This document shows positions 1 to 33,932 of a stretch of 54,237 nt of DNA, in pieces. The notes under the pieces are model-generated. The model worked only from the letters and a program-made list of their open reading frames with translations. It ran no database searches and was not told the DNA's origin. This DNA is from an uncultured Oscillospiraceae bacterium (lineage in GTDB: Bacteria; Bacillota; Clostridia; Oscillospirales; Oscillospiraceae). Within the stretch, counting starts at the first letter, position 1. Each line of letters begins with the position of its first letter. Location: assembly GCA_944387205.1 (NCBI GenBank), contig CALXDZ010000041.1:1-54237 (forward strand). Reading direction: 5' to 3'. The position numbers and the translations under genes are program-made.

Positions 1-22
1 GGACGGAAAGGTGCGTTGCAGT

Positions 23-4016: not shown

Positions 4017-5078
4017 ATGGAACCGCTCAAACAACTGACGGAGCCGCTGCTTTCCTGGTACGGGGCCAACGCCCGGGACCTGCCCTGGCGCCGCAGCCCC
4101 GACGCCTATCGGGTCTGGGTCTCGGAGATCATGCTCCAGCAGACCAGGGTGGCCGCGGTGCTGGGCTACTACGCCCGCTTCCTGGAGGCCTTCCCCACGG
4201 TGGAGGCCCTGGCAGCCGCCGACGAGGGGCAGCTGATGAAGCTCTGGGAGGGCCTGGGCTATTACAGCCGGGCCAGGAACCTCCAAAAGGCGGCCCGGGT
4301 GGTCACGGAGCAGCTGGGCGGCCGCTTTCCGGAGACCTATGAGGGCCTCATGGCCCTGCCGGGTATCGGGGACTACACCGCCGGGGCCATCCTCTCCATC
4401 GCCTTTGGTCAGCGTGTGCCGGCGGTGGACGGCAACGTGCTGCGCCTGGCCGCCCGGATCACCGGCAGCCGGGCGGACGTGACGGATATGAAGGTCCGCC
4501 GGGACTTCCGCGCCCAGGTGCTGGAGGCCATGCCGGAGGCGGCGCGCAGCGGCGCCTACAACCAGGCGCTGATGGACCTGGGGGCCACGGTGTGCCTGCC
4601 CAATGGCGAGCCCCTTTGTGAAAGCTGCCCGGCCAGGGACTTCTGCGTGGGCCATCTGACGGGCTGCGCCCGGGAGCTGCCCGTCCGGGCCCCCAAGCGC
4701 AAGCGCCGGGTGGAGGAGCGGACAGTGCTGGTGCTCCTCTCCCCCGACGGCGCGGCACTGCGCCGCCGGCCGGACACGGGGCTACTGGCGGGGCTGTGGG
4801 AGTTTCCCAATGTGGAGGGAAAGCTGGACGAGGCCGCCGCTGCCGCCCTGGCGGAGCAGTGGGGACTGGAGATCAAAAATTGGTGCCGGCGGGTCACCGC
4901 ACGGCACATTTTTACCCATGTGGCGTGGCATATGACCGGCTATGTGCTTCATGTTCAGGGCCGTGGGCCGGAGGACTTCGTCTGGGCCCGGGGAGAGGCA
5001 CTGGCGTCTCTGGCGGTGCCCTCGGCCTTTGCCCGCTTCCTGGCCGAGGCCCGGGAGGAGCTCCAGGGGCAGCAGTGA
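4017..5078 (+). CDS. mutY: A/G-specific adenine glycosylase MutY
   Basis: Removes adenine mispaired with 8-oxoguanine. The HhH-GPD core is clear: SEIMLQQTRV near residue 40 (catalytic Glu), the helix-hairpin-helix LPGIGDYTAGAIL, and AVDGNVLRLAAR with the catalytic Asp. The [4Fe-4S] cysteines follow as CLPNGEPLCESCPARDFC, with seven residues between the first two cysteines instead of the six of E. coli; I recall this spacing from other Firmicutes. The C-terminal MutT-like domain (GLLAGLWEFPNVEGK) recognises the oxidised base. At 353 residues it is a normal length. It lies between a small unknown gene and tdk with short gaps, so cotranscription is likely. Confidence 0.95.
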   Translation: MEPLKQLTEPLLSWYGANARDLPWRRSPDAYRVWVSEIMLQQTRVAAVLGYYARFLEAFPTVEALAAADEGQLMKLWEGLGYYSRARNLQKAARVVTEQLGGRFPETYEGLMALPGIGDYTAGAILSIAFGQRVPAVDGNVLRLAARITGSRADVTDMKVRRDFRAQVLEAMPEAARSGAYNQALMDLGATVCLPNGEPLCESCPARDFCVGHLTGCARELPVRAPKRKRRVEERTVLVLLSPDGAALRRRPDTGLLAGLWEFPNVEGKLDEAAAAALAEQWGLEIKNWCRRVTARHIFTHVAWHMTGYVLHVQGRGPEDFVWARGEALASLAVPSAFARFLAEAREELQGQQ

Positions 5079-5094
5079 GAACAGGAGAGAGAAG

Positions 5095-5697
5095 ATGGCA
5101 CAGCTTTATTTCAAATACGGAGCCATGGGCTCCAGCAAGACCGCCAATGCCCTGATGGCCCGCTTCAACTACGAGGAGCGGGGCCAGAGGGCCCTGATGG
5201 TCAAGCCCCAGGTGGACACCCGGGACGGGGACCACATGGTCCGCTCCCGCATCGGCCTGACCTATCCCTGCCTCTATTTCCACGAGATGCGGGCCCTGCC
5301 GGAGGCGGAGCTGGAGCAGTACGCCTGCGTCATCGTGGACGAGGCCCAGTTCCTCACCCGGGAGGAGGTCATGTTCCTGGTCCACCTGGTGGACGACTGG
5401 AACATCCCGGTCATGTGCTACGGCCTGCGGGCGGACTTCAAGGGGGACCTGTTCCCCGGCAGCGAGGCGCTGCTGATCATGGCCGACAAGATCGAAGAGG
5501 TTAAGACCGTGTGCTGGTGCGGCAAGAAGGCCACCTTCAACGCCCGGTTCGACGAAAACGGCAAGGTGCTCAAGGAGGGCAAGCAGGTGGAGCTGGGGGC
5601 CAACGACCGTTACACCAGCCTGTGCCGCAAGCACTGGATGGCCGGGGACCTGGGGCCGGACTTTGCCATTGAAAAGGGGCCCGGCCATGATCTGTGA
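5095..5697 (+). CDS. tdk: Thymidine kinase (type II, zinc-containing)
   Basis: Phosphorylates thymidine for salvage. About 200 residues, the normal length for tetrameric type II enzymes. The N-terminal P-loop region reads YGAMGSSKTANALM, with Ser in place of the usual Gly before the Lys. The catalytic acid is in VIVDEAQFL, the lasso-like GLRADFKGDLFPGS follows, and zinc cysteines appear in CWCGKKA and the late SLCRKHW. ATG 5095 is preceded by AGGAGAGA; the open frame extends upstream inside mutY, but that part is not family sequence. The downstream radical SAM gene overlaps its end by 11 nt. Confidence 0.93.
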   Translation: MAQLYFKYGAMGSSKTANALMARFNYEERGQRALMVKPQVDTRDGDHMVRSRIGLTYPCLYFHEMRALPEAELEQYACVIVDEAQFLTREEVMFLVHLVDDWNIPVMCYGLRADFKGDLFPGSEALLIMADKIEEVKTVCWCGKKATFNARFDENGKVLKEGKQVELGANDRYTSLCRKHWMAGDLGPDFAIEKGPGHDL

Positions 5698-6556
5698 TCT
5701 CTGCCCCCGCCGCTGCGGCGCGGAGCGGACGGAGGAGACGGGGGGCGGCGTGTGCGGCATGCCCGCCGGGCTGCGCCTGGCCCGGGCGGGGCTCCACTTC
5801 TGGGAGGAGCCCTGCATCAGCGGCACCCGTGGCTCCGGAGCGGTGTTCTTCTCCGGCTGCTGCCTGCGGTGCTCCTTCTGTCAGAACCGGACCATCAGCA
5901 CCGGGGGCTTCGGAAAGGCCGTATCCGTAGAGCGCCTGCGGGAGATCTTCCGGGAGCTCATCGCCCAGGGGGCCCACAACCTGAACCTGGTGACCCCCAC
6001 CCACTTCACCCCCTGGATTTTGAAGGCCCTGGACCCGGCGCCGCCGGTGCCGGTGGTGTGGAACTGCGGGGGCTATGAGCGGGTGGAGACATTGCGGACC
6101 CTGGAGGGAAAGGTGCAGATCTATCTGCCGGACCTGAAGTATGCCCTGGAGGGGCCGGCGGCGGCCCTCAGCGCCGCGCCGGACTACTTCCCCGTGGTCC
6201 GGGCGGCCATTTTGGAGATGTACCGCCAGACGGGGCCCTATGAGATGGAGGACGGGCTTTTGAAAAAGGGCGTGGTGATCCGGCACCTGGTGCTGCCGGG
6301 CCAGCTGGAGAACACCCGCCGGTGCATCGACTGGGTAGCGGAGACGTTTGGGCCCGGCCAGGTGCTCTTCTCCCTTATGGCCCAGTACACGCCCCAGCCC
6401 GGGGCTACCGGGCCCATGGCCCGGCACGTGACGGGGGCGGAGTATGCCGCGGCTGTTGCCTATATGGAAAACTGCGGCATCACCGACGGCTTCACCCAGG
6501 AGCGGACCTCCGCCCGGGAGGAGTACACCCCCGACTTCGACCTGACGGGGGTATGA
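5687..6556 (+). CDS. PflX-like radical SAM protein (COG1313)
   Basis: About 289 residues. It starts with CDLCPRRCG, a second cysteine motif typical of PflX/COG1313 proteins, then GAVFFSGCCLRCSFCQN with the radical SAM CxxxCxxC, and LVTPTHFTPWIL. These proteins resemble pyruvate formate-lyase activases and presumably install a glycyl radical or reduce a substrate, but their target is not established. ATG 5687 overlaps the end of tdk by 11 nt and is preceded by AAGGGG. A TTG at 5663 is a less likely start. The gene ends just before a strong terminator. Confidence 0.85.
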   Translation: MICDLCPRRCGAERTEETGGGVCGMPAGLRLARAGLHFWEEPCISGTRGSGAVFFSGCCLRCSFCQNRTISTGGFGKAVSVERLREIFRELIAQGAHNLNLVTPTHFTPWILKALDPAPPVPVVWNCGGYERVETLRTLEGKVQIYLPDLKYALEGPAAALSAAPDYFPVVRAAILEMYRQTGPYEMEDGLLKKGVVIRHLVLPGQLENTRRCIDWVAETFGPGQVLFSLMAQYTPQPGATGPMARHVTGAEYAAAVAYMENCGITDGFTQERTSAREEYTPDFDLTGV

Positions 6557-6563
6557 AAGAGAA

Positions 6564-6615
6564 AAAAGAGCCCGGTCCCTTTTGGGACCGGGCTCTTTTG
6601 GGACCGGGCTCTTTT
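6564..6615 (+). terminator. Terminator with duplicated 3' arm
   Basis: The left arm AAAAGAGCCCGGTCCC (6564-6579) can pair with either of two adjacent identical right arms, GGGACCGGGCTCTTTT at 6584-6599 and 6600-6615. Each right arm ends in a T-tract. It lies between convergent genes and can also act on the minus-strand symporter transcript. Confidence 0.85.
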
Positions 6616-6632
6616 TGCGGGATGGGGTGCCC

Positions 6633-7997
6633 TTACAGCAGGCCCTGGATCAGGATCACCAGGATGATGATGGGCAGGATGAACTGGAAGTAGGGCTTGA
6701 AGGCCCGGGACATTCTGAGCCCCCGGCCGGTGTTGGCCTCGGCCAGGTACTTGTCAAAGCCCCAGCCCCAGCGGCTGACGCAGAACAGCAGGTAGATGAG
6801 GGACCCGATGGGCAGCAGCAGGTTGGAGACCAGGAAGTCCTCGATGTCCAGAATCTGGCCGCCGCTGGGGGCGTTGGGCAGTACCACGGAGAAGTACCAC
6901 ACATTGTAGCCCAGGACGCAGGGGAGGCTGGCGATGAGGATGAAGAGACCGCAGGAGACGGTGGCCTTCTTCCGGGACCAGCCGAAGCTGTCCATGCAGT
7001 TGGCCATGATGTTTTCAAACACCGCCAGGACAGTGGTGAAGCTGGCGAAGGTCATGAACAGGAAGAACAGCGCACCCCACACCCGGCCGCCGGCCATGTG
7101 GAGGAACACCCGGGGCAGCGTCATGAAGATCAGGGACGGGCCGCTGCCCGCCTCCACGCCGAAGGAAAAGCAGGCGGGGAAGATGATCATGCCGGACATG
7201 AAGGCCACGAAGGTGTCCAGGGCGCAGATGCGCACGGCCTCACCGGTGAGGGTGTGGTCCTTGGACATATAGCTGCCGAAGATCTCCATGGCGGCGATGC
7301 CCAGGCTCAACGTAAAGAAGGACTGGTTCATGGCGGCGGTGATGACCTTGCCCAGGCCCGCCTGGGCGGCCCGCTGGAAGTCGGGCAGCAGGTAGAACTT
7401 CACACCCTCGGCAGCACCGTCCAGAGTCAGGCTGTGGCCTGCCAGCACCACGATCAGCACCAGCAGCGCCAGCATCATCCACTTGCTGATGCGCTCCAGG
7501 CCCTTCTGGAGGCCGAAGGAGCATACCAGGAAGCCCGCCAGGACGATGATGACCATAAAGACGGTCATCTCACCGGGGTTTGCCAGCATGGCGGAGAACA
7601 CGCCGTCCACCGCCTCATCGGTCACGCCGGTAAAGGCGCCGGAGGCGAACTTATAGAAGTAATCCAGCATCCAGCCGGCCACGGTGGTGTAGTACATCAT
7701 CAAAAGGCAGCAGCCGATGATACACACCCAGCCGTGGATGTGCCACTTGCTGCCCTTGGGCTGGAGTGCCTTGTAGCCCTCCACGGCGCTCTTGCCGCTG
7801 GCTCGGCCCACTGCCAGCTCCATGGTCAGCACCGGCACGCCCATGATGATCAAAAACAGCACATAGAACAGCACGAACACGCCACCGCCGTTTTCCCCGG
7901 TCACATAGGGGAACTTCCACACGTTGCCGATGCCGATGGCGCAGCCGGCACTGACCAACAGGAAGCCCAGCCGGGATTGAAAGTTTTCTCGCTTCAT
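6633..7997 (-). CDS. Sodium-dependent transporter, NSS (SNF) family
   Basis: A 454-residue membrane protein with about eleven helices, of the neurotransmitter:sodium symporter family (LeuT fold), which imports amino acids or related amines with Na+. The diagnostic first helix reads SAGCAIGIGNVWKFPYVTGENGGG, with the unwound GNVWKFP sodium and substrate site. ELAVGRASG and a Ser/Thr-rich later helix also fit. ATG 7997 has GGGGGAG 7 nt upstream. It is a single gene with its own promoter (8074-8102). Bacterial members have often been linked to Trp, Tyr, Leu or Ala, but the substrate cannot be read here. Confidence 0.93.
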   Translation of the reverse strand: MKRENFQSRLGFLLVSAGCAIGIGNVWKFPYVTGENGGGVFVLFYVLFLIIMGVPVLTMELAVGRASGKSAVEGYKALQPKGSKWHIHGWVCIIGCCLLMMYYTTVAGWMLDYFYKFASGAFTGVTDEAVDGVFSAMLANPGEMTVFMVIIVLAGFLVCSFGLQKGLERISKWMMLALLVLIVVLAGHSLTLDGAAEGVKFYLLPDFQRAAQAGLGKVITAAMNQSFFTLSLGIAAMEIFGSYMSKDHTLTGEAVRICALDTFVAFMSGMIIFPACFSFGVEAGSGPSLIFMTLPRVFLHMAGGRVWGALFFLFMTFASFTTVLAVFENIMANCMDSFGWSRKKATVSCGLFILIASLPCVLGYNVWYFSVVLPNAPSGGQILDIEDFLVSNLLLPIGSLIYLLFCVSRWGWGFDKYLAEANTGRGLRMSRAFKPYFQFILPIIILVILIQGLL

Positions 7998-9485: not shown

Positions 9486-11432
9486 TTACTTGCCCAGCTT
9501 GGTCAGGGCGTAGTCCACGGTGCCGGCGGTGACGGCGGTGCCGGTGAGCAGGCCCTGGGCCTTGGCGGTACTCAGCGCCTGGGAGAGGGTGGCGGAGGCG
9601 TTGTAGCCGGTGTGGCCGCTGGCGGCGGCGTAGCGCACCAGCATGGCGGCGAACTGGGCCTGGGTGATGGTATCGTTGGGCTGGAAGGTGGTGCCGGTGA
9701 CGCCCTTGACGATGCCCTTTTCTCTGGCCCAGGCCAGCGCCTTGGCATAGGAGGCATCGGAGGCGACGTCGGTGAAGCCGGTGTCAGAGGCGGCGGCGCT
9801 CTGGCCGGCATAGGTGTACAGGCGCTCCACGGCCTGGGCGCGGGTCAGAGGGGCGGCAGTGCTCTCGCCTTCGCCGGTCTTGCGGATGGTGAAGGTCTGG
9901 TCAATGGCCTCAGCCTGGCCCTTATCGGTGATCTGGTAGGTATCGATGGAGAAGGAGGTGGGGGTCATGGTGATGACGGAGTAGCTGGGCAGCCAGTTCT
10001 GGCTCCGCTGGGCGATGTAGTCCTGCTGGGCGGAGATCAGCTCATAGAACTTGGAGCCGGAGGCGGAGTTGGCGCTCATGTACAGCGTGCCGTTGGGGTT
10101 GGTGACGGTGTTGCCGCTGGTGGTCTCAATGGTGTAGCACTTGTTGTCGGCCTGGAAATTGTTCAGCAGGGTCTGACCGGCGGTGTCGCCCTCCTCGGGA
10201 TACAGGGGGATCTTGGAGCTGGTCTGGGTGTTGTAGGCGTTGTCCCAGTCGTAGTCGCTGCCGTCGGCGTTGAGCTGGAACTCATAGGTACCGTGGGTCT
10301 GGCCGTCGCCGTAGAGCAGCTTGGAGCGGCTGTAGGTGTGGTCGTGCCCCTGGAGCACCACGTCGATGTCATACTGATCGAAGATGGGGGTCAGCTGGGT
10401 CCGCAGGATCATGCCGTCGGTGTCGGAGTGGTCCAGACCGGTGCCGTAGATGTCCTGGTGGATGGTGACCACACGCCAGGCGGCGTCGGGATCGGAGGAC
10501 ACGGCCTCGGCGATGGCCTGCTTGTGCTCGGCGACGTTATAGTTATTGGTGTTGAGGACGATGAACAATCCCTCGCCGTAGGAGTAATAGTAGTCGCCGC
10601 CGGCCTCCGTGGTGCCGTAATCGGTGGCGTTGGGGTTATTGAAGTGGTACATATAGTCGGCGTTGAGGGAGTCGTGGTTGCCGATGGTGGTGGCCACGGG
10701 CAAAGAGGCCAGCAGGTCGGGGCTCAGATAGCCGGCGTACTCCTCCTCCTTGGCCTTGCCAGTTTTGTTGACCTGGTCGCCGGCGGAGATGATGAAGCTC
10801 AGGTCGGGGTTCTGCTCGGCGGCGATCTCCAAGGTGCGGTTCCAGCCGAAGGCGTCGTTGCGGGCGGCGGTGTTGGCTGCGCCGCTGTCAGCCACCAGAT
10901 CCTCGTCGCCCTGGGGCTGGCCCTTGGAGGCGCCGATCTGGGGGTCGCCCACATACAGCATCTTTACGGTGGAGAAGCTCCGGGTCTGATAGGTCTCCAC
11001 ATCCGTCTCCACGCCGTTTTTCTCCACGGTGTAGTAGTAGGTGGTGTTCTCCTTCAGTCCGGTGACGGTGACGTGGTTGTAGACGTACTTCTCCCCGTCA
11101 GTGAGAGAGGTGTCCACAGCGGCGGAGGTGCCGGTGAAGACCTTGAGGTTGCTGCGGTCCGTGCCGAAGTGGACCACGGGGGTGGCCTTGCCCTCATCCT
11201 TGCTGTACCAGGCGAAGTTCAGCTCCGTCTCATCGGCACCGGGGGTCAGGGAGACCTGGGTGTAATCGGTAGCCACACTCTCCCATTCCTTGGTCCAGGC
11301 CTGCCACTGGGCGCTGCCGCCCACGGTGGCGCCGTCGTTGTAGTGGACGGTGGCGGCCAGAGTGGGCACGCAGGTCCCCGCCAGCAGCACGCCGCTGAGG
11401 GCCAGGGTCAGGAGCCTTTTTTTGGTCTGCAT
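9486..11432 (-). CDS. Secreted purple-acid-phosphatase-like metallophosphoesterase with SLH domains
   Basis: A 648-residue secreted protein. A signal peptide (about 1-27, ending PTLAA) is followed by a fibronectin-III-like N-terminal domain as in purple acid phosphatases (TELNFAWYSKDEG, VTVTGLKENTTYYYTV). The calcineurin-like catalytic domain has metal motifs GDPQIG, SAGDQVN, GNHD, TIHQD and GHDHTYSR at about residues 160-400. The C-terminal ~140 residues are SLH-like repeats (FTDVASDASYAKALAWAREKGIVKG, FQPNDTITQAQFAAMLVRYA) that should anchor it to cell wall polymers. ATG 11432 has AAGGAAGGG 7 nt upstream. It is divergent from the cobalamin operon, whose proteins share the SLH anchor. It probably releases phosphate from external esters. 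Confidence 0.9.
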   Translation of the reverse strand: MQTKKRLLTLALSGVLLAGTCVPTLAATVHYNDGATVGGSAQWQAWTKEWESVATDYTQVSLTPGADETELNFAWYSKDEGKATPVVHFGTDRSNLKVFTGTSAAVDTSLTDGEKYVYNHVTVTGLKENTTYYYTVEKNGVETDVETYQTRSFSTVKMLYVGDPQIGASKGQPQGDEDLVADSGAANTAARNDAFGWNRTLEIAAEQNPDLSFIISAGDQVNKTGKAKEEEYAGYLSPDLLASLPVATTIGNHDSLNADYMYHFNNPNATDYGTTEAGGDYYYSYGEGLFIVLNTNNYNVAEHKQAIAEAVSSDPDAAWRVVTIHQDIYGTGLDHSDTDGMILRTQLTPIFDQYDIDVVLQGHDHTYSRSKLLYGDGQTHGTYEFQLNADGSDYDWDNAYNTQTSSKIPLYPEEGDTAGQTLLNNFQADNKCYTIETTSGNTVTNPNGTLYMSANSASGSKFYELISAQQDYIAQRSQNWLPSYSVITMTPTSFSIDTYQITDKGQAEAIDQTFTIRKTGEGESTAAPLTRAQAVERLYTYAGQSAAASDTGFTDVASDASYAKALAWAREKGIVKGVTGTTFQPNDTITQAQFAAMLVRYAAASGHTGYNASATLSQALSTAKAQGLLTGTAVTAGTVDYALTKLGK

Positions 11433-11470
11433 GCGCAATCCCTTCCTTTGTCTAATTTCTTCCTATTTCC

Positions 11471-11648: not shown

Positions 11649-11676
11649 TTTACAAATCCGCGGGATATGATACAAT
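11649..11676 (+). promoter_or_regulatory. Promoter of the cobalamin uptake operon
   Basis: TTTACA (11649-11654), a 16-bp spacer and TACAAT (11671-11676), with an extended TG element at 11668-11669. It precedes the riboswitch by about 10 nt. Confidence 0.7.
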
Positions 11677-11682
11677 AGGCGT

Positions 11683-11878
11683 ACCTGTCGGGCCTTTCCA
11701 AAAAGTGCCGGACAAAAATTCCATAGAGGGATCGCTTCCGCCGCCCGCCCGGGCGGCAGGGGGAATGGGGTGCAAGGCCCCGCGAGTCGGTCACTGTGAA
11801 GCCGCCTTTGGCGGATAAGTCAGAATGCCTGAAGCGGTCCGAAGTTTCTGCCGGAACCGGAGACTGACGCGCATAGGT
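11683..11878 (+). ncRNA. Cobalamin riboswitch aptamer
   Basis: The conserved cobalamin-aptamer strings are present in order. They are a 5' stem region after the promoter, GGGGGAATGGGGTGCAAGG near 11760, the CCCCGCGAGTCGGTCACTGTGAA core at 11777-11799 (cf. the family CCCGCnaCTGTaA), and AAGTCAGAATGCCTGAAG at 11818-11835, the B12-box counterpart. Binding of cobalamin normally promotes downstream termination, so the operon should be expressed when B12 is scarce. Boundaries are approximate. Confidence 0.87.
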
Positions 11879-11879
11879 T

Positions 11880-11911
11880 CCGAACTGCCCATTTGGCGGT
11901 TCGGTCTTTTT
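11880..11911 (+). terminator. Riboswitch expression-platform terminator
   Basis: CCGAACTGCC pairs with GGCGGTTCGG (one G-U pair) and is followed by TCTTTTTG. It lies directly after the aptamer and is the expected OFF-state terminator. Confidence 0.82.
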
Positions 11912-11919
11912 GTGTTGTG

Positions 11920-11950
11920 CTGTCTGCCGGAAGCGGCAGGCAGATTTTTA
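11920..11950 (+). terminator. Second terminator-like hairpin before the ribosome binding site
   Basis: CTGTCTGCC, a 6-nt loop and GGCAGGCAG are followed by ATTTTTA. It ends 3 nt before the AGGAGG of the first operon gene, so it could reinforce termination or mask translation. Confidence 0.65.
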
Positions 11951-11964
11951 TAGGAGGAAGGACG

Positions 11965-14900
11965 ATGAAGAAGAGGATTTTGGCTCTGGTGCTGGCACTG
12001 ACGCTGGCCCTGGGCCTGCTGCCGGCCACGGCCCTGGCGGCGGAGCAGGAGATTACCATCCGCCTGTCCGTTTTCAACCAGGGTGTTCCCACGCAGGATA
12101 AAGAGGGGAACGCTATGCTGGCGCGGTCTGTTGTGGTCACCGACCGAAACGGCGACGGGGCATACAGCCTGGACGAAGCCCTTTTGGCGTCCCATGAGGC
12201 CTATGCGCCCAACGGAGGCGCTGATTACCAGAGCGGATATAACAATGACTGGGGGACCTATGCGGTCACCAGGCTCTGGGGAGAGGAGAGCTCCGCAGTC
12301 AGCTTCTATAAGGACCACGCCTATACGGGCGCGGTGGATGCAGAGATGCTCTCCGAAGGACAGCTGGTGGATGCCTTTATCTATAAGGACCAAGTTAACT
12401 GGACGGACCGCTACTGCTATTTCGTCCAAAATGGAACGCCGGTGGATGCTTTGTCGGTGTGTGTGGGAGAGGAATTTGCGCTGACGCTGCAGTATGACCA
12501 GTGGGGCGCTGCCAGCCCCCAGCCCACTGCGCCCCTGGGCGTATTTGACCAGAGCGGTGCGTATTCTGAATGTGAGGCTCTCCGGGGCGAGCAGGTGTAC
12601 GGCGAGATCTATGCAAAGCCTGCCACCGACGGAAAGGGCGAGGCAAAGATCAGCTTTACCGCCCAGGGCACCTATCTGCTGACGGCCCAGTATGATTCCA
12701 CCAACTATACGGACTACAATAATACGCCGCCTCAGTATTACCTGGTGCCACCTCTTTGCACCGTCACCGTGTATGACGACACCCCCCAGGGCCATGTGGA
12801 CGCCGCCCTGGATAACCTGACCGAGAGCACCCTCCTTGGCGGCAACGCCTCTCTGGACGCCCTGAGTCAGGACCTGACGCTGCCCGCCTCCACCTGCGGC
12901 GGCACCACCATCACCTGGTCCCTGGATACCCAGGACGACAGCGTCATCGGCTATTACGGCGGCAGCGTGGTCTACATCGGCGGCGCCAAGTCCGCGGCGG
13001 TCACCGCCGCCCTCACCGCCACGGTGAAGAGTGCGGACGAATCTGTACAAAAGTCCAAGACCTTTGCCCTGACTGTGCCCGCTGCCGCCTCTGACCCGGA
13101 CAAGACCGGCGTGGTGGACTACGGCAAGGTCATGAACGGCATCGCCTCCAGGTGGCAGGACGGCTCCGCCGCCACCTCCCCCATCGACGACACGGACCTG
13201 CCCTGGGCGGTGGCGGACATGGCCGCCTACGGCGCCGCTCTGGACAATGCCGAGCAGAGCCGGTATGAGATGCTCCTGAACAGCAGCGACAGCTACGGCA
13301 CCCCTAATAACACACTTGCCAAGTTCATCCTGGCCCAGCAGGCCCTGGGGGAGACCACCACTGCGCCGGAGGTCCCCGCCTCCCCGGACATCTGGTCCGC
13401 CCCCTCCATCCTGCTGGCCCGGTACGGAGCCGGCACCACGGCCCTTGCGGACAATCAGGCCCTGGTCAGCTTTATGACCGCCTATCTCTCCGGCACCGGG
13501 CTGGATGTGGACACGGCGGCGGCCATGCTGCCCGCCCTGGCCCCCTACTATAGCAGCGACAGCACTGTCAAGGCCGCCGTGGACAAGACGGTGGCCTGGC
13601 TCTCCGCCCAGCAGGGCACCGGCGGCACCTGGCGGAACAATGCCAATACCACCGCCCAGGTGGTGGTGGCTTTGGCGGCCCTGGGCATCGACGCCCACAC
13701 CGACACCCGCTTTATCAAGGGCGGCAAGAGCGCCGTGGAGGGTCTGCTGTCCTTCGCTTTGGCGGACGGCACCGGCTTTGGCTACGGCGGCAACGTGACC
13801 TACAACAACATGGCCACGGAGCAGGGCTTCCGGGCCCTGGTGGCCTATGCCCGGATGAAGGAGGGCGGCAAAGCCTATCACCTCTACCTCCAGGCCAAGG
13901 ACAGCACCGGCATGGTCACCGCTCCCAACATCACCGCCACCCATCCCGGCGGAGGCGAAGGGGGCGGCACCATCACCCCCTCCACCATCACCGTCACGTT
14001 CTCCCTCCGGGGAGACACGGTCCACGGGGAGGGTGGCCACACCGCCTATACCACCTGGATCTCCTCCACCGGCTATACCCTGCCCAGCGGCGCCACCGTG
14101 GCGGACCTGCTGGCCTCTGCCGCCGCAGACAAGGGCTTTACCTACGCCGGAAGCAGCTATGTGTCCAGCATCACCTGGAACGGCATCACCCTCTCTGAGC
14201 AGGCCAACGGCCCCTACTCCGGCTGGATGTTCACCGTCAACGGCAAGATCACCAACACCGGCATGACCACCACGGTTCTCCACAGCGGCGACAGCGTGGT
14301 GTGGCGGTATGTGGATAACTTCAACACGGAGATCGACTGGAGCGAGGACGGCACCGGCACCCCCTCCACCGGCGGCCAGACCAAGCCGGAGGAGAAACCT
14401 GAGGAGAAGCCGGAGGAAAATCCCCAGGAGATCACCTATACCGACGTGCCTGAGGACAGCTGGTGCGCCGAAGCCGTGGCGGCGGTCACCGAGGCCGGCC
14501 TCTTTACCGGCTACGCCGACGGCTCCTTTGGTGTCCATGACTCCATCACCCGGGGCCAGATGGCTCTGGTGCTCTACCGCCTGGCGGGCCAGCCGGAGAC
14601 GGAAGCTACCTCCGCCTTTTCCGACAGCGCCGACTGGTGCGCCGCGGCCCTGACCTGGGCGGCGGAAAGCGGCGTGGCCCTGGGCTACGGTGACGGCTCC
14701 TTCGGCGTGGGCCAGCGGCTCAAGCGGGAGCAGCTGGTGACCTTCCTGTACCGCTATGCGCTTCAGGCAGACTTGGACACCTCCGCCTCCGCGGACCTGA
14801 GCGCCTACACCGACAGCGGCGAGCTGCTGGATGCCGACGCCATGGCCTGGGCCGTGGGCGCGGGACTGATGAAGGGCCGCACGGAGACCATCCTGGCCCC

Positions 14901-14973
14901 CGGTGCTGCCATCACCCGGGCGGAGGCCGCTGTGATTTTCCAGCGCTTCCTCACCGCCTATCCCCAGAAGTAA
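11965..14973 (+). CDS. SLH-anchored surface protein with alpha/alpha-toroid and transcobalamin-like DUF4430 domain
   Basis: A 1002-residue secreted protein. It has a signal peptide (1-25, TALAA), an N-terminal beta-rich region I do not recognise (26-270) and a bacterial Ig-like segment (about 273-370). An alpha/alpha-toroid of the prenyltransferase/terpenoid-cyclase type follows (about 381-665, with AWLSAQQGTGGTWRNNANTTAQVVVALAALG-like repeats). Then come a DUF4430 domain (about 673-790, NGPYSGWMFTVNGKITNTG..LHSGDSVVWRYV), a Pro/Glu linker and three SLH repeats (823-1002). A toroid plus DUF4430 is the architecture of animal intrinsic factor and transcobalamin. Being first behind a cobalamin riboswitch, it is most simply a surface corrinoid-binding protein. 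ATG 11965 has AGGAGGAAGG. Binding itself is inferred. Confidence 0.88.
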   Translation: MKKRILALVLALTLALGLLPATALAAEQEITIRLSVFNQGVPTQDKEGNAMLARSVVVTDRNGDGAYSLDEALLASHEAYAPNGGADYQSGYNNDWGTYAVTRLWGEESSAVSFYKDHAYTGAVDAEMLSEGQLVDAFIYKDQVNWTDRYCYFVQNGTPVDALSVCVGEEFALTLQYDQWGAASPQPTAPLGVFDQSGAYSECEALRGEQVYGEIYAKPATDGKGEAKISFTAQGTYLLTAQYDSTNYTDYNNTPPQYYLVPPLCTVTVYDDTPQGHVDAALDNLTESTLLGGNASLDALSQDLTLPASTCGGTTITWSLDTQDDSVIGYYGGSVVYIGGAKSAAVTAALTATVKSADESVQKSKTFALTVPAAASDPDKTGVVDYGKVMNGIASRWQDGSAATSPIDDTDLPWAVADMAAYGAALDNAEQSRYEMLLNSSDSYGTPNNTLAKFILAQQALGETTTAPEVPASPDIWSAPSILLARYGAGTTALADNQALVSFMTAYLSGTGLDVDTAAAMLPALAPYYSSDSTVKAAVDKTVAWLSAQQGTGGTWRNNANTTAQVVVALAALGIDAHTDTRFIKGGKSAVEGLLSFALADGTGFGYGGNVTYNNMATEQGFRALVAYARMKEGGKAYHLYLQAKDSTGMVTAPNITATHPGGGEGGGTITPSTITVTFSLRGDTVHGEGGHTAYTTWISSTGYTLPSGATVADLLASAAADKGFTYAGSSYVSSITWNGITLSEQANGPYSGWMFTVNGKITNTGMTTTVLHSGDSVVWRYVDNFNTEIDWSEDGTGTPSTGGQTKPEEKPEEKPEENPQEITYTDVPEDSWCAEAVAAVTEAGLFTGYADGSFGVHDSITRGQMALVLYRLAGQPETEATSAFSDSADWCAAALTWAAESGVALGYGDGSFGVGQRLKREQLVTFLYRYALQADLDTSASADLSAYTDSGELLDADAMAWAVGAGLMKGRTETILAPGAAITRAEAAVIFQRFLTAYPQK

Positions 14974-15024
14974 TCGTCCCCCGCCTTTTGAGGCGGGATG
15001 GGCCTTGAAAGGATGTGGAGCTAT

Positions 15025-16569
15025 ATGAAAAAGATGATGCACCGGGCCGCGGCCCTGGCGCTGTGTCTTGTTCTGGCCCTCAGCGCCGCCCCGGCGGCGC
15101 TGGCGGCCGGGACGCCTTTGGAGCGCACCGCCGACTATGTGTGTCAAACTGTCACGGACCCCACCGTGGGCACTGCCGGCGGCGAGTGGGCCGTGCTGGC
15201 CCTGAAGCGGGCGGGACGGCTGACCGCAGACCAGGAGGCACGCTATCTGGAAAACCTGCAAAAGTGCCTGGAGGACTCTGACGGTGTCCTCTCGTCCACC
15301 AAGTACACCGAGTATGCCCGGGTGGTTCTGACCCTGACGGCCCTGGGAGATGACCCGGGAAATGTGGCGGGCTATGATCTGCTCGCCTCCCTGGCTGAGT
15401 GCGACAAGGTGGTGCGCCAGGGCATCAACGGGGCCATCTGGGCCCTTATCGCTCTCCGCTCCGCCGCCTGCACTGCCTGGGACGTGCAGGGCGGGGCGCT
15501 GGTGGAGGCCGGGGATGTGTACCTCAGCGCCATCCTTGCCGCTCAGCTCTCTGACGGCGGCTGGGCCCTCTCCGGCAAGACCCCGGCGGACCCGGACATC
15601 ACCGCCATGGCCCTGTGCGCCCTGGCGCCATATCAGGAGAATGACGCCGTGAAAACGGCGGTGGAGCGGGGCCTCGGGTGCCTCAGCGCCATCCAGAACG
15701 ACGACGGCACCTTTGGGGCCCCCACTGCCGAATCCTGCGCCCAGGTGGTGCTGGCCCTCCATGAGCTGGGGATCTCCCCCGGTGACGCCCGGTTCACCAA
15801 GGGCGGCGTCTCCGCCCGGGAGGCCCTGCTGACCTTCGCCCGCAGCGACGGCAGCTTCTCCCACGTCCCCGGCGGCATGGCCGACCAGATGGCCACGGAG
15901 CAGGCGCTGTGCGCCCTGGCGGCCCAGGAGGTGGAGGGCAGCTTCTTCCTGCCCGACACCGCCGGTGAGACGCCGGACCTTGCCATTCCCGCTCCGGGCG
16001 GCCAGGCCGTCACCTTCCCGGACATTCAGGGCCGGGCAGACCAGAGCGCCATCGAGGACCTGGCCCGCCGGGGGGTGCTGCTGGGCCGCAGTGACGGCAC
16101 CTTTGACCCGGATGCTTCCATGACCCGGGGGGAGTTCTGCGCCGTGGTGGTCCGGGCCCTGGGTCTGAAAAAGACCCAGGAGAGCCCCTTCGCCGACGTG
16201 CCGGCCTGGTGCGCCGACGCTGTGGCCGCGGCCTATGAGGCAGGCATCGTCCGGGGCACCACCGCCACCACCTTCACTCCCGGCGGCACCATCACCCGCC
16301 AGGAGGCGGCGGTGATGCTGGCCCGGGCGGCCCGGTATGCATCCGGCACCGCCGTCAGTTACAGTCAGGCGGCCTGTGAGTCGCTGCTGCGCAGCGGCGG
16401 CAGCGACTGGGCCCAATGCGGCGCCTGGGCGGCACGGGATGTGGCGCTGTGCCTCCAGAGCGGACTGCTGGGCGGCACCAACGGGACCATCCGGCCCCGG
16501 AGCCCCATCACCCGGGGTGAGGTGGCCCAGTCCGTGGCCGGGCTGCTCCACAGTGCATTTTTGGCCTGA
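15025..16569 (+). CDS. SLH-anchored alpha/alpha-toroid surface protein
   Basis: A 514-residue secreted protein with a signal peptide (1-28, ending ALAAG) and an alpha/alpha-toroid of prenyltransferase-like repeats (about 30-315; AAQLSDGGWALSGKTPADPDITAMALCAL, AIQNDDGTFGAPTAESCAQVVLAL). Three SLH repeats follow (329-514; FPDIQGRADQSAIEDLARRGVLLGRSDGTFDP). It resembles the toroid plus SLH parts of the preceding protein but has no DUF4430 domain. It could be a half-receptor that completes its ligand site with the next protein, which carries only DUF4430. The start is taken at 15025 after GGAG; ATG 15013 sits too close to AAAGG. It is second in the riboswitch-led operon. Confidence 0.85.
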   Translation: MKKMMHRAAALALCLVLALSAAPAALAAGTPLERTADYVCQTVTDPTVGTAGGEWAVLALKRAGRLTADQEARYLENLQKCLEDSDGVLSSTKYTEYARVVLTLTALGDDPGNVAGYDLLASLAECDKVVRQGINGAIWALIALRSAACTAWDVQGGALVEAGDVYLSAILAAQLSDGGWALSGKTPADPDITAMALCALAPYQENDAVKTAVERGLGCLSAIQNDDGTFGAPTAESCAQVVLALHELGISPGDARFTKGGVSAREALLTFARSDGSFSHVPGGMADQMATEQALCALAAQEVEGSFFLPDTAGETPDLAIPAPGGQAVTFPDIQGRADQSAIEDLARRGVLLGRSDGTFDPDASMTRGEFCAVVVRALGLKKTQESPFADVPAWCADAVAAAYEAGIVRGTTATTFTPGGTITRQEAAVMLARAARYASGTAVSYSQAACESLLRSGGSDWAQCGAWAARDVALCLQSGLLGGTNGTIRPRSPITRGEVAQSVAGLLHSAFLA

Positions 16570-16595
16570 GAGATGAGAGAACGGGAGGCGAGGAC

Positions 16596-17330
16596 ATGAA
16601 CAGAAAAAAGGGGATCCTGGCCGCGGTGGTGATCCTGGTCATTCTGGCGGGGGCCTGGTGGCTGGGAAGCCCCGGGGCACCGGAAACGGTGCCGGCCTCC
16701 TCTGGCCAGGAGGCCTCCCTCCCCATGCAGGAGGAACGTCAGGAGGAGAGCGCCGCTTCCGCCCAGAAGACAGAAACGGAAACTGCGCCGGAGACAGCCG
16801 AGCCGTCGGCAGAGGACGGGGCGGCAGATCAGGAGACCACTGACAAACCCCAGACGCAGCCCCAGACCACGGCGCCTGCCGACCCGGGGAAAAAGGAGCC
16901 TGTCAAAACACAGCCGGAGCAGTCCACCTGCACGCTGACCATCCGCTGCGACACCCTGGTGGGCAAGCCCGAGGAACTGGACAAATCCAAGGCAGAGCTA
17001 GTGCCTGCAGACGGGCTCCTCTACTCCGCCACGGTCTCCTTCACCGCCGGGGAGAGCGTCTTTGATGTGCTCCAGCGGGCCATGAAGGAGGCAGGCATCC
17101 CCATGGAGTTTACCAGTGTGCCGGTGTACGGCTCGGCCTACATCGAGGGCATCGCCAACCTCTATGAGTTTGACTGCGGAGCGCTGTCCGGGTGGGTCTA
17201 CTCGGTCAACGGCGTGTTCCCCAACTACGGCTGCTCCAAGTATACCCTGAAGGACGGGGATGAGGTGCTGTGGCAGTACACCTGCGACCTGGGAGCCGAT
17301 GTGGGCGGCGACAACGGGGCCTGGTCATGA
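16596..17330 (+). CDS. Membrane-anchored DUF4430 (transcobalamin-like C-terminal) protein
   Basis: A 244-residue protein with a Lys-rich start and one N-terminal membrane helix (about 6-24), with no lipobox Cys. A long Pro/Glu/Thr-rich linker (about 25-108) leads to a DUF4430 domain (about 110-235). It shows FTAGESVFDVLQRAMKEAG, GALSGWVYSVNGVFPNYG and LKDGDEVLWQYT, the signature loops of the cobalamin-facing beta domain of transcobalamin-type proteins. The linker would let it reach into the wall, so it may pass ligand from the SLH proteins to the ECF transporter. Its stop overlaps the EcfT start (ATGA). A GGGAGG-type ribosome binding site precedes ATG 16596. Confidence 0.87.
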   Translation: MNRKKGILAAVVILVILAGAWWLGSPGAPETVPASSGQEASLPMQEERQEESAASAQKTETETAPETAEPSAEDGAADQETTDKPQTQPQTTAPADPGKKEPVKTQPEQSTCTLTIRCDTLVGKPEELDKSKAELVPADGLLYSATVSFTAGESVFDVLQRAMKEAGIPMEFTSVPVYGSAYIEGIANLYEFDCGALSGWVYSVNGVFPNYGCSKYTLKDGDEVLWQYTCDLGADVGGDNGAWS

Positions 17331-18208
17331 GAAAGAGCACCTTTGCCGGATACCATCCGGCGGTAAACGCGGCCTATTTCCTCCTGGTGCTGACGGGAGC
17401 GGTGTGCTGGATGCACCCCCTGGCCCTGGGGGTTTCGGCGGTGTGCGCCGCCGGATATGCCGCCGTGGTGCTGACGCCCCGGGTGCTGGGGCGTCGGCTT
17501 TTGTGGCTCCTGCCGGTGATGGGTCTTGCGGCGGTCATTAACCCCGCCTTCAACCACCGGGGGGCCACCATCCTTGCCTACCTCCCCTCCGGCAATCCCC
17601 TGACCCTGGAGTCGTTGGCCTACGGCCTGGCGGCGGCGGGGATGCTGGCGGCGGTGCTTTTGTGGTGCGCTTGCCTCCACCAGGTGCTGGACACGGAGAA
17701 GATCCTCTACCTCCTGGGCCGGCCGCTGCCCACATTGAGTTTGGTGCTGGCCATGGCTCTGGGGTTCGTGCCCCGGTTCCGCCAGCAAGCCCAAAAGGTG
17801 GCCCAGGCCCGTAAGGCGGCGGGGTGGGAGGTTTCCCGCCGCCGGTTGCGGGAGGCGGTGACCCGGTTTTCCATCCTGGTGACCTGGGCCCTGGAGACGG
17901 CGGTGGAGACGGCGGACTCCCTGGCGGGCCGGGGCTGCGGACTGCCGGGCCGGACGGCCTTCTCCCCCTTCCGCCTGGAGCGCCGGGACCTGTGGGCCCT
18001 GGCCTTTTTGCTGTTGGGCGGCGGCTTTGTGCTCTGGCGTGTAGCCGGGGGCGGCCTTGCCTGGCAGTGGTTCCCCCGGATGGGGGGCCCGGCCCCGGGG
18101 CCGGGGGACTGGGCAGTGCTGGCGGTCTACGGGGCAGTGTGCGCCCTGCCGCTGATCTTAGAGGGAAAGGAGGCCTGGCTGTGGAGACGTTCCAGGTCCA
18201 GGATCTGA
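17327..18208 (+). CDS. ecfT: ECF transporter transmembrane coupling subunit EcfT
   Basis: A 293-residue membrane protein coupling ATP hydrolysis to the S component. It has five to six helices. The two cytoplasmic coupling-helix motifs are recognisable as QARKAAGWE (about 160) and ADSLAGRGCG (about 202), the equivalents of the two Ala-Arg-Gly motifs that contact the ATPases. The ATG is within the ATGA overlap with the DUF4430 gene. Its end overlaps the ATPase fusion gene by 28 nt. It is dedicated to this operon and so probably serves only the cobalamin system, unlike the shared housekeeping EcfT. The family call is firm; the ligand is inferred from the riboswitch. Confidence 0.9.
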   Translation: MRKSTFAGYHPAVNAAYFLLVLTGAVCWMHPLALGVSAVCAAGYAAVVLTPRVLGRRLLWLLPVMGLAAVINPAFNHRGATILAYLPSGNPLTLESLAYGLAAAGMLAAVLLWCACLHQVLDTEKILYLLGRPLPTLSLVLAMALGFVPRFRQQAQKVAQARKAAGWEVSRRRLREAVTRFSILVTWALETAVETADSLAGRGCGLPGRTAFSPFRLERRDLWALAFLLLGGGFVLWRVAGGGLAWQWFPRMGGPAPGPGDWAVLAVYGAVCALPLILEGKEAWLWRRSRSRI

Positions 18209-20625
18209 CCTTTTACTACCCCGGCGAGGCCCGCCCTGCCCTCTCGGAGGTGTCGCTGACGGTGGAGCGGGGGGAGTTTCTGGCCCTCTGCGGCCCCAGC
18301 GGAGGCGGAAAGACCACCTTGCTGCGGCTTCTCAAGCCCGCCGTGGCTCCCCATGGCCGCCGCAGCGGCACCATCCTCTTCCGGGGGGAGCCCCTGGAGT
18401 CCCTGGATCGCCGCGCCGCTGCTGGGGCCATCGGCTTCGTGGGCCAGCACCCCGAGCGCCAGTGCGCCACGGACAAGGTCTGGCACGAGCTGGCCCTGGG
18501 GCTGGAGTCCCTGGGCTACGGAGACGGGGAGATCCGGGCCCGGGTGGCGGAGATGGCCGCCTTTTTCGGCATCCAGGACTGGTTCCACCGGGACATCGCC
18601 TCCCTCTCCGGCGGCCAGCGCCAGCTGCTGAGCCTGGCGTCGGTGCTGGTGATGCGGCCGGAGGTGCTGGTGCTGGACGAGCCCACCGCCCAGCTGGACC
18701 CTATCGCCGCGGGCCAGTTCCTGGAGGCGCTGGGCCGGGTGAACCGGGAGCTGGGCACCGCCGTGGTCCTCTCGGAGCACCGGCTGGAGGAGGTGTTCCC
18801 CCTGGCCCGGCGGGCGGCGGTGCTGTCTGGCGGCCGGGTGCTGGACTGGGGCCCACCGGAGGAAATGGCCCCTGCCCTGGTCCGCTGCGGCCTGGGGCCC
18901 TCGGTCCCCGCCCCCATGCGGGTGTGGCGGGCGTCGGGGGAGGCGCCTCCCTGTCCGGTCACCGTGGGCCAGGGCCGGCGGTGGCTGGAGGACCTGTCCC
19001 ACCGCCGTCCCCTGGACCCCTCCGCCGTGCCGGAGGATGGAGATGTCCCCTCCGGCGAGCCGGTGGTGGAGGTCCGGGAGGCCTGGATGCGGTACGAACG
19101 GGACCTGCCCGACGTGCTCCGGGGCATCAGTCTGACGGTGCGCCGGGGGGAGCTGCTGGCCATCCTGGGCGGCAACGGAGCGGGCAAGTCCACCCTCCTT
19201 TCGGTGCTTGCAGGGCTTCGCCGGCCCTGGCGGGGAGCCGTGAAGGTGCTGGGCAAGGCCCCGGAGCGGTGCCCGGCGGGCACCGTGGCTCTGCTGCCCC
19301 AGGACGTGCAGGTGCTCTTTGCCCGTACCACGGTCCGGCAGGATCTGGAGGAGATGCTCCAGGGGACCGCTTTTTCTCCGGAGGAGCGGCAGGAGCGGCT
19401 TTCGGAGGTGACGGCCCTGTGCGGCCTTACCGGGCTTTTGGAGCGCCACCCCTATGACCTCTCCGGCGGCGAGCAGCAGCGGCTGGGCCTGGGAAAGCTG
19501 CTGCTGACAAGGCCCCAGGTGCTGCTGCTGGACGAGCCCACCCGGGGTCTGGACGGCTGCTTCAAGGAGCAACTGGCGGCCATTCTGCATGCGCTCTGCC
19601 GCCAGGGGGTGACGGTGGTGCTGGTGTCCCACGATGTGGAGTTCTGCGCCCGCCACGCCGGGCGCTGCGCCCTGTTCTTCGACGGCGCTCTGGTCCGGGA
19701 GGACACCCCCCGGCGGTTTTTCGGGGCCAACACCTTTTACACCACCGCCGCCCGGCGGATGGCGGACACGGTGCTGCCCCAGGCGGTGCTGCCGGAGGAC
19801 CTGATTGCCGCCCTGGGCGGGGAGGAGCCGCCTCTGGAGACGCCGCCGGAGGAGCCACCCGCGCCGCCCCCTCCCCCGCCCTCTGAGGACGGCTCCGGCC
19901 CGGCGGGAAAGGGGACTGAACGGCCTCCTCTGCCCCGGCGGACCAGGGCGGGCATCGTCACCTCCCTTTTGGCGGTGCCGGTGACCATCCTGGCTGGCAT
20001 CTTTCTTCTGGACGACCGGCGGTATTGGTTCATCAGCCTGCTGGTGCTGCTGGAGACCATGGCCCCCTTTTTCCTGGCCTTTGAGGGGCGGCGGCCCCGG
20101 CCCCGGGAGGCGCTGCTCATCGCTGTGCTCTGCGCCCTGGCGGTGGCGGGGCGGCTGGTCTTTTACATGCTCCCCCAGGTCAAGCCGGTGGTGGCCCTGG
20201 TCACCGTGGCCGGGGCGGCCCTGGGGGCGGAGACGGGCTTTCTGACCGGGGCGGTCACCGCCTTTGTCTCCAACCTCTTCTTCGGTCAGGGACCATGGAC
20301 CCCCTGGCAGATGTTCGCTTTCGGCATGGCCGGGCTCCTGGCGGGACTGGTGTTCCGCCGCCTGGGGCCCACCCGGGGGCGGCTGTGCGTCTGCGGGGCC
20401 CTGACGGCCTTCTTCCTCTGCGGCACGCTGCTGGACACCGGCTCGGCCCTCATGTGGCAGGCCTACCCCTCCCTGGGGGCCTTTTTGAGCTACTATGTGA
20501 CGGGCCTGCCCTTCAATCTGGTCCACGCCGGAGCCACGGCGGTGTTCTTGTGGCTGCTGGGGGAGCCCATGCTGGAAAAGCTGGAGCGGGTCAAGTCCAA
20601 ATACGGCCTGCTGGAGACCCCGTAA
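18181..20625 (+). CDS. ECF ATPase A - ATPase A' - S-component triple fusion
   Basis: An 814-residue protein. ATPase 1 (about 1-270) has Walker A GPSGGGKTT (38), signature LSGGQRQ (142) and Walker B VLVLDEPTAQLDP (162). ATPase 2 (about 295-545) has Walker A GGNGAGKST (331), LSGGEQQ and VLLLDEPTRGLDG. A Pro/Glu-rich linker leads to a hydrophobic domain (about 588-814) with at least six helices and the Gly-rich GAALGAETGFLTGAVTAFVSNLFFGQGPWTPWQMF, typical of ECF S components. GTG 18181 has AAAGGAGG 7 nt upstream. With EcfT this forms a complete group I-like ECF importer; its position behind a cobalamin riboswitch points to corrinoid uptake, as for CbrT systems. The three-way fusion is unusual. 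Confidence 0.9.
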   Translation: METFQVQDLTFYYPGEARPALSEVSLTVERGEFLALCGPSGGGKTTLLRLLKPAVAPHGRRSGTILFRGEPLESLDRRAAAGAIGFVGQHPERQCATDKVWHELALGLESLGYGDGEIRARVAEMAAFFGIQDWFHRDIASLSGGQRQLLSLASVLVMRPEVLVLDEPTAQLDPIAAGQFLEALGRVNRELGTAVVLSEHRLEEVFPLARRAAVLSGGRVLDWGPPEEMAPALVRCGLGPSVPAPMRVWRASGEAPPCPVTVGQGRRWLEDLSHRRPLDPSAVPEDGDVPSGEPVVEVREAWMRYERDLPDVLRGISLTVRRGELLAILGGNGAGKSTLLSVLAGLRRPWRGAVKVLGKAPERCPAGTVALLPQDVQVLFARTTVRQDLEEMLQGTAFSPEERQERLSEVTALCGLTGLLERHPYDLSGGEQQRLGLGKLLLTRPQVLLLDEPTRGLDGCFKEQLAAILHALCRQGVTVVLVSHDVEFCARHAGRCALFFDGALVREDTPRRFFGANTFYTTAARRMADTVLPQAVLPEDLIAALGGEEPPLETPPEEPPAPPPPPPSEDGSGPAGKGTERPPLPRRTRAGIVTSLLAVPVTILAGIFLLDDRRYWFISLLVLLETMAPFFLAFEGRRPRPREALLIAVLCALAVAGRLVFYMLPQVKPVVALVTVAGAALGAETGFLTGAVTAFVSNLFFGQGPWTPWQMFAFGMAGLLAGLVFRRLGPTRGRLCVCGALTAFFLCGTLLDTGSALMWQAYPSLGAFLSYYVTGLPFNLVHAGATAVFLWLLGEPMLEKLERVKSKYGLLETP

Positions 20626-20635
20626 AAAGCAAAAA

Positions 20636-20671
20636 GAGTCCCCGGTCCGCATCTAAGCGGACCGGGGACTC
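20636..20671. terminator. Bidirectional terminator after the cobalamin operon
   Basis: GAGTCCCCGGTCCGC, loop ATCTAA and its perfect complement form a 15-bp stem between the converging ECF fusion and galM genes. The left flank is A-rich and so serves the minus strand; on the right only CTCGTTTATAT follows, a weak T-tract. Confidence 0.78.
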
Positions 20672-33730: not shown

Positions 33731-33932
33731 AAATGAAGAGCCGCAGGGACAGAGCATCCGCTTGCTGTCCCCTCACCGCCGGGAGAGCGAAACTTCCGGG
33801 GCTTTACGACAGGTCTCCACACTGCCGCACCGCCGGCTCGGCGGATTTTTCCTCCTTTTTGACAGCTGCCGTCCGCTATGGGAATGGAGTAGCGGTCCGG
33901 CGCCTAAATGAGCGGGGAAAGGGAAAGTGCGC

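Follow-up and report, generated by a model that had tools for sequence, protein, structure and literature searches.

A probable B12-controlled operon joining a CbrT-type importer to wall-anchored, intrinsic-factor-like proteins in an Oscillospiraceae bacterium

Little is known of how Gram-positive gut bacteria take hold of vitamin B12 before it reaches the membrane. The subject of this analysis is a putative corrinoid uptake operon of an uncultured Oscillospiraceae bacterium (assembly GCA_944387205.1), located on the forward strand of contig CALXDZ010000041.1, of which positions 1 to 54,237 were analyzed and are collectively referred to as the window. The plus-strand region from 11649 to 20671 reads as a single compact operon of five genes, all on that strand and either spaced by 24 to 51 bases or overlapping. 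As described in an initial annotation made from the sequence alone, and borne out here by Pfam searches and structure models, the genes encode, in order, a toroid-DUF4430-SLH protein, a toroid-SLH protein, a membrane-tethered DUF4430 protein, the coupling subunit EcfT, and an ATPase-ATPase-S fusion. The operon is preceded by a sigma-70-like promoter site (11649 to 11676, plus strand; TTTACA, 16 nucleotides, and TACAAT, with TG ahead of the second hexamer), which represents a consensus match only, three sites of this kind being found by consensus matching in 9.5 kb where 0.8 would be expected. Downstream of this site lie a compact, divergent candidate cobalamin riboswitch aptamer (11710 to 11850, plus strand) and, between the aptamer and the first gene, an expression platform with two intrinsic terminators (11880 to 11904 and 11920 to 11943, plus strand), whose folding z-scores against shuffled sequences are -4.6 and -4.1, respectively. 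A ribosome-binding site, AGGAGG, is present at position 11952, ahead of protein 1.

Protein 1 (11965 to 14973, plus strand) is composed of a predicted signal peptide, an N-terminal region, an aBig_2 domain (about 12838 to 13083), an alpha/alpha toroid (about 13117 to 13880), a DUF4430 domain (14089 to 14310), and three SLH domains; the toroid is too weak for Pfam and was detected by an iterated profile and by structure modeling, the remaining domains being Pfam matches. Protein 2 (14998 to 16569, plus strand, with a possible alternative start at 15025) harbors a predicted signal peptide and three SLH domains around an alpha/alpha toroid only (about 15106 to 15978), for which Pfam returns a weak SQHop_cyclase_C match (25.4 bits versus a cut-off of 26.1). 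Both signal peptides are N-terminal hydrophobic segments, judged by eye and by hydropathy. Protein 3 (16596 to 17330, plus strand) possesses one N-terminal membrane helix, followed by a long linker rich in Glu, Thr, Gln, and Pro and a DUF4430 domain recognized by Pfam (17049 to 17282). These two DUF4430 domains, in proteins 1 and 3, are the only ones found in the assembly. The gene for EcfT, the transmembrane coupling subunit identified by its likeness to the copies of relatives (17327 to 18208, plus strand), overlaps both flanking genes, its start overlapping the stop of protein 3. The open reading frame of the fusion spans 17824 to 20625, with the true start being probably the GTG at 18181 rather than 17824, yielding a product of 814 amino acids (18181 to 20625, plus strand) whose S part, assigned by Pfam and profile, is encoded at 19921 to 20616. 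The operon ends at a terminator-like hairpin (20636 to 20671, plus strand), and an overlapping hairpin also scores on the minus strand.

A 2009 survey of energy-coupling factor (ECF) transporters reportedly predicted the system CbrTUV. The present importer is of the CbrT type, as judged by sequence comparison and as the initial annotation had proposed, comprising a CbrT-homologous S component, two ATP-binding cassette (ABC) ATPase domains, and EcfT. Pfam identifies two ABC_tran domains and one ECF S component in the fusion protein, and when a profile of 35 S parts was compared with the whole PDB, a single match was significant, namely 6fnp_A (CbrT; E = 4.3e-15), the next having an E-value of 0.022; NCBIfam names returned for the S part (FolT, riboflavin) fell far under their cut-offs. 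The window copy of EcfT has no Pfam match, is 43 to 49% identical to 12 relatives, and contains seven hydrophobic segments, and the cut-off of CbiQ (PF02361) was reached by 7 of the 10 EcfT proteins scanned (the window copy and nine relatives).

Of 250 genomes of the family, 111, counting the present one, have a detected homolog of the S component; three congeners have none. From 38 of these 111 genomes, 40 loci were chosen by rank and flanking DNA, giving 41 family loci together with the window, and a second set of 80 loci was fetched through an alignment of the DUF4430 tether, A2 (the best 80 of 525). Loci L118, L123, L131, and L137 of the second set lie on the same contigs as L038, L071, L059, and L047 of the first, and the two sets therefore overlap by four. 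A single-protein scan of the genome contigs with protein 2 returned no match. The S part is fused to ATPases in 39 of the 41 family copies, a count that excludes an unrelated S gene from the leftmost part of the window. This fusion of S behind two ATPases, the dedicated EcfT, and the accompanying wall proteins distinguish the present system from ECF-CbrT of Lactobacillus delbrueckii (6fnp), with which it shares S homology over 174 profile positions, EcfT, and two ATPases; the S part also has about 57 extra N-terminal positions and two further hydrophobic stretches relative to CbrT. ECF-CbrT is reported to import cobalamin and cobinamide (PMC5997447), cbrT and cbrV are described as occurring commonly among Negativicutes, Clostridium, and Ruminococcus (PMC9306216), and a Lactobacillus plantarum plasmid is listed as carrying CbrV, CbrU, and CbrT (PMC6722938).

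The site upstream of the operon is taken as a real, divergent cobalamin riboswitch on the basis of covariance and sequence matches, and the operon is probably under vitamin B12 control, as the initial annotation had suggested. With an E-value threshold, the cobalamin model RF00174 finds a sole match in the window (11718 to 11850, plus strand; 23.3 bits versus a cut-off of 31.5; E = 7.3e-4), and within the whole assembly only the aptamer reaches E <= 0.001 (E = 6.3e-4, with 150 of 187 candidates scored). A covariance-type switch model, R1, was built from 20 aligned switches of relatives, hand-picked from 35 RF00174 matches in 40 related loci, with the window left out; its sole match in 54 kb at E <= 5 is positions 11710 to 11850 of the plus strand (19.3 bits; E = 1.4e-4 by a rough calibration). 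The window switch retains the core words GGGAA, GGTG, and AGTCAGAA of its relatives and is without their long peripheral arms. Among the family loci, a co-oriented RF00174 match (E <= 0.05) was located upstream of S in 26 of 40, with 21 of these over the cut-off, where uniform placement would yield 0.44. In the 80 loci fetched with A2, R1 produced 52 matches in 46 loci (both of those in L118 being training sequences), 51 of the 52 sharing the strand of the operon, and in 44 loci a match stands upstream of the tether.

Other search results were less favorable. At the gathering score RF00174 has no match in the 54-kb window, the match described above lying below that cut-off; the absence of a hit, which the initial annotation had named as counterevidence, thus holds only in that narrow sense, the match by E-value being significant. 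Two multi-genome RF00174 searches in which fewer candidates were scored missed the window aptamer, one with stricter filters and one scoring 76 of 187 candidates. The remaining 14 of the 40 family loci, some of whose contigs end nearby, have no co-oriented upstream RF00174 match, and a search at the gathering score of seven family loci without such a match found no cobalamin switch. Application of R1 to these 14 added an upstream, co-oriented match only in L045, as a 27th locus; the match in L055 is on the other strand, ahead of a divergent toroid-DUF4430-SLH gene, and is itself a training sequence, and that in L054 is downstream of S.

The surface proteins had been likened to animal intrinsic factor and transcobalamin with regard to their pair of folds, a proposal which the structure models sustain. 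When the toroid-DUF4430 part of protein 1 (13117 to 14364) was modeled from 25 sequences (predicted local distance difference test [pLDDT] score, 78.6; predicted template modeling [pTM] score, 0.64; low-confidence linker), all 13 PDB matches with E < 1e-3 were intrinsic factor, transcobalamin, or haptocorrin (E = 1.4e-9 to 4.3e-8), with a further intrinsic-factor chain next at E = 1.0e-3 and a polysaccharide lyase as the first noncarrier at E = 2.4e-3. In this model, the presence in protein 1 of an alpha/alpha toroid with a C-terminal beta domain, the fold pair of intrinsic factor and transcobalamin, is considered established. The animal proteins, including haptocorrin, display the same order of toroid and DUF4430-like beta domain and constitute the best structural matches, at 12 to 17% identity, but differ from the bacterial proteins in that the latter are anchored to the wall by SLH domains, contain an extra Ig-like domain, and also place toroid and DUF4430 on separate proteins. 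TCN proteins are stated to contain a DUF4430 domain (PMC4350170). The model of protein 1 also matches RUMGNA_00854 (PDB 3u7z) over 114 columns (TMt 0.63; E = 0.01), presumably through the beta domain; this solved bacterial protein has one domain, 97 residues long, and its PDB entry labels it a putative metal-binding protein. For the toroid of protein 2, modeled from 35 sequences (pLDDT, 93.4), the best eight matches among 350,542 PDB chains are all transcobalamin chains (E = 2e-5 to 8e-5).

Kinship with the B12 carriers is weakened by a number of results. For protein 1, superposition of both domains on the carriers gave template modeling (TM) scores of 0.41 to 0.48 and a root-mean-square deviation of 12 to 14 Å, and the relative placement of the domains, therefore, differs or is wrong in the model; the structural comparison proposed in the initial annotation thus recognized both domains and left their arrangement untrustworthy. 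For protein 2, prenyltransferases and cyclases follow close behind, the prenyltransferases at E = 1e-4 and with TM scores of up to 0.66, compared with 0.58 to 0.65 for transcobalamin, and because these scores are equal the transcobalamin lead is consistent but thin. At the level of sequence, the toroid profile favors squalene cyclases (squalene-hopene cyclase and drimenyl diphosphate synthase), and profiles of DUF4430 find no significant animal B12 carrier, transcobalamin-2 appearing only at E = 1.3. A Pfam scan of 35 toroids with a limit of E <= 1 returned no match to Cobalamin_bind, the Pfam family of intrinsic factor and transcobalamin, which is likewise absent from the matches of proteins 1 to 3, and single-sequence PDB searches with proteins 1 and 3 returned SLH and chance matches only.

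The cyclase matches of the toroid profile, together with the polysaccharide lyase that is the first noncarrier match of protein 1, could be taken to signify that the toroid proteins are enzymes, either class II terpene cyclase-like or polysaccharide active, which free or modify corrinoids or wall polymers. This reading is regarded as very improbable, as the best structural matches are nonenzymatic transcobalamins and the cyclase motif, DXDD, is not kept: in 35 of 35 aligned toroids the residue after an invariant Asp164 is I, V, L, M, or E and never Asp, and the assignment as a terpene cyclase was rejected on this ground. Ligands of such toroids sit at the N-terminal end of the inner helices, and it is at these ends, with inner and outer helices set from their alternation, that conservation of the toroid peaks. 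Because 8 of 261 circular shifts (unshifted included) were equal or better and the C-terminal ends of the inner helices are likewise conserved (P = 0.003), this pattern supports a functional mouth only moderately.

The layout recurs in Clostridia and in a Paenibacillus. Among the family loci, DUF4430 directly precedes EcfT in 36 of 41, and in 35 of 41 a toroid-bearing gene precedes this pair. In the set fetched with A2, 20 of the 80 loci are without S and one is without EcfT in the available DNA; of the other 59, the order DUF4430-EcfT occurs in 56 and toroid-DUF4430-EcfT in 49, the set including loci of Flavonifractor plautii, Sporobacter termitidis, Papillibacter cinnamivorans, Cellulosilyticum ruminicola, and Paenibacillus plantarum. 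Loci L079 (6190 to 9408) and L082 (6417 to 9429) harbor a riboswitch, a toroid-SLH gene, and a DUF4430 tether, with no ECF gene in the approximately 9 and 2.7 kb of downstream DNA, respectively, to which the search was confined; the toroid/DUF4430 pair itself would, therefore, be under B12 control. The opposite-strand neighbors in L079 encode URO-D and pterin-binding domains, such as are found in corrinoid methyltransferase systems. The names used by annotation pipelines include that of an extra lipoprotein component in a predicted cobalamin ECF transporter, and the DUF4430 tether may be this component. Six family loci (L037, L041, L045, L048, L059, and L060) encode very large DUF4430-SLH proteins (1447 to at least 2388 amino acids) in the position of protein 1, upstream of the toroid-SLH gene.

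This recurrence bears on the principal alternative, according to which CbrT alone imports corrinoid, while the SLH and DUF4430 proteins serve in the wall or in adhesion, turn the same folds to other ligands, such as glycans or peptides, and are passengers in the operon. In its favor, the DNA examined of four loci (L035, L066, L067, and L073) encodes EcfT and S but neither toroid nor DUF4430, and ECF-CbrT of L. delbrueckii is reported to transport without partners of this kind (PMC5997447). The preference of the toroid sequence profile for cyclases and the roughly equal fit of prenyltransferases to the toroid model point in the same direction, as does the occurrence of DUF4430 in S-free genomes detailed below. 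Set against these are the adjacency of the genes (35 of 41 loci), the structural match of protein 1, which is strong and goes to B12 carriers exclusively, the riboswitch-led pairs of L079 and L082 with no ECF genes in reach, and a mean column identity of 76% for the tethered DUF4430, on account of which a passenger role is considered unlikely.

The initial annotation had further suggested that the toroid-only and DUF4430-only proteins assemble a split site. Although the two stand side by side at 35 of 41 loci, no covariation of their distances beyond the operon background was seen, the mirror-tree test across 35 loci giving a toroid-DUF4430 correlation of 0.67 and a partial correlation of 0.14, compared with partial correlations of 0.56 for DUF4430-EcfT, 0.63 for S-EcfT, and 0.41 for toroid-S. 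The suggestion thus gained no support from this test.

At the genome level, DUF4430 is present in 108 of the 111 genomes with S and in 60 of the 139 others (P = 1e-22). Its occurrence in the latter and in the control genomes of Lactococcus lactis and Methanosarcina acetivorans indicates that the domain is not specific for corrinoids. Further evidence unfavorable to a corrinoid role is that the B12-binding_2 domain (PF02607) is not enriched with S (84 of 111 versus 113 of 139; P = 0.35), and that of the 27 S genomes without PF02607, in which alone PF02310 and NrdJ were sought, 8 have one of these over the cut-off and 19 have neither (QueG and most mutases were not sought); ten of these 19 are listed as 95 to 99% complete. 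The 19 of 111 S genomes without any of the three B12-user families over the cut-off, and the acceptance of cobinamide by CbrT noted in the same transporter report (PMC5997447), are compatible with a substrate other than complete B12, namely a corrinoid precursor, a degraded corrinoid, or another tetrapyrrole. This appears improbable, since 26 of 40 loci have a match to the cobalamin riboswitch, and in view of the content of the organism's own assembly, which is 86% complete: it encodes one B12-binding domain, in a protein read as MetH-like, and CbiC was not found in it. The congener G155, which lacks the operon, has a cobalamin riboswitch (L155, 6938 to 7115) before CbiM, CbiQ, and an ABC ATPase (4137 to 6890), a cobalt uptake set, which fits a split between scavenger and producer within the genus, with one genome on each side; a second congener, G210, also has a cobalamin switch.

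It is, therefore, proposed, with a probability of about 0.72, that the locus is a B12-repressed corrinoid scavenging operon in which a CbrT-type importer is combined with an extracellular capture layer. From the anatomy of the leader, plentiful corrinoid would cause the riboswitch to let both terminators form, switching the operon off. When corrinoid is scarce, the cell would produce the ECF importer, with its own EcfT and the fused ATPase-ATPase-S chain, together with the capture layer, of which proteins 1 and 2 would be bound to the wall via their SLH domains and protein 3 held on its flexible membrane tether. The wall proteins, we infer, would bind corrinoids at the interface of toroid and DUF4430, in the manner of the animal B12 carriers, and the tethered DUF4430, either by itself or with the protein 2 toroid clamped to it, may then carry the ligand to CbrT at the membrane. 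The importer and riboswitch are of known kinds, and the novelty lies in the putative wall-anchored, intrinsic-factor-like capture layer, which is well supported by anatomy and fold.

Surface capture of B12 has been described for BtuG and BtuH of Bacteroides, likewise genetically linked to B12 transport genes (PMC6143338), but BtuG differs in fold, being a beta-propeller surface lipoprotein that works with BtuB (PMC6143338, PMC6977713). B12-binding proteins with DUF4465 are also on record. A review notes that btuFCD homologs are present, and btuB absent, in many Gram-positive gut bacteria, which may therefore use variants of the known machinery (PMC6977713). No description of an intrinsic-factor-like wall layer joined to an ECF importer was found among the open-licence papers covered. 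The present findings suggest that, in some bacteria, surface capture of B12 is carried out by relatives of the human B12 carriers. If this is true, the operon would parallel the surface capture system of Bacteroides, a function would be available for many DUF4430 and toroid-SLH proteins, and the origin of the animal B12 carriers would become testable. A more speculative extension, which we advance only tentatively and hold to be rather doubtful, is that Gram-positive bacteria have a wall B12 clamp assembled in trans, in which the protein 2 toroid and the tethered DUF4430 domain of protein 3 would enclose a corrinoid between them in the manner of the two intrinsic-factor domains and of which protein 1 would represent the fused form, and that corrinoid-capture proteins of this bacterial type are the ancestors of animal intrinsic factor, transcobalamin, and haptocorrin.

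The surroundings of the operon contain further features of note. The divergent operon neighbor (9486 to 11438, minus strand) encodes a purple-acid-phosphatase-like metallophosphoesterase with one SLH domain, and the left end of the window (11 to 541, plus strand) is occupied by a stand-alone ECF S component of the riboflavin-transporter type (PF07155, 118 bits). A malK-I RNA motif (33725 to 33907, minus strand; 127.9 bits) is located directly ahead of a gene for a MalK-like ABC ATPase (32594 to 33757). Among the relatives, a flavin mononucleotide riboswitch is present near a related importer locus (L065, 19008 to 19122).

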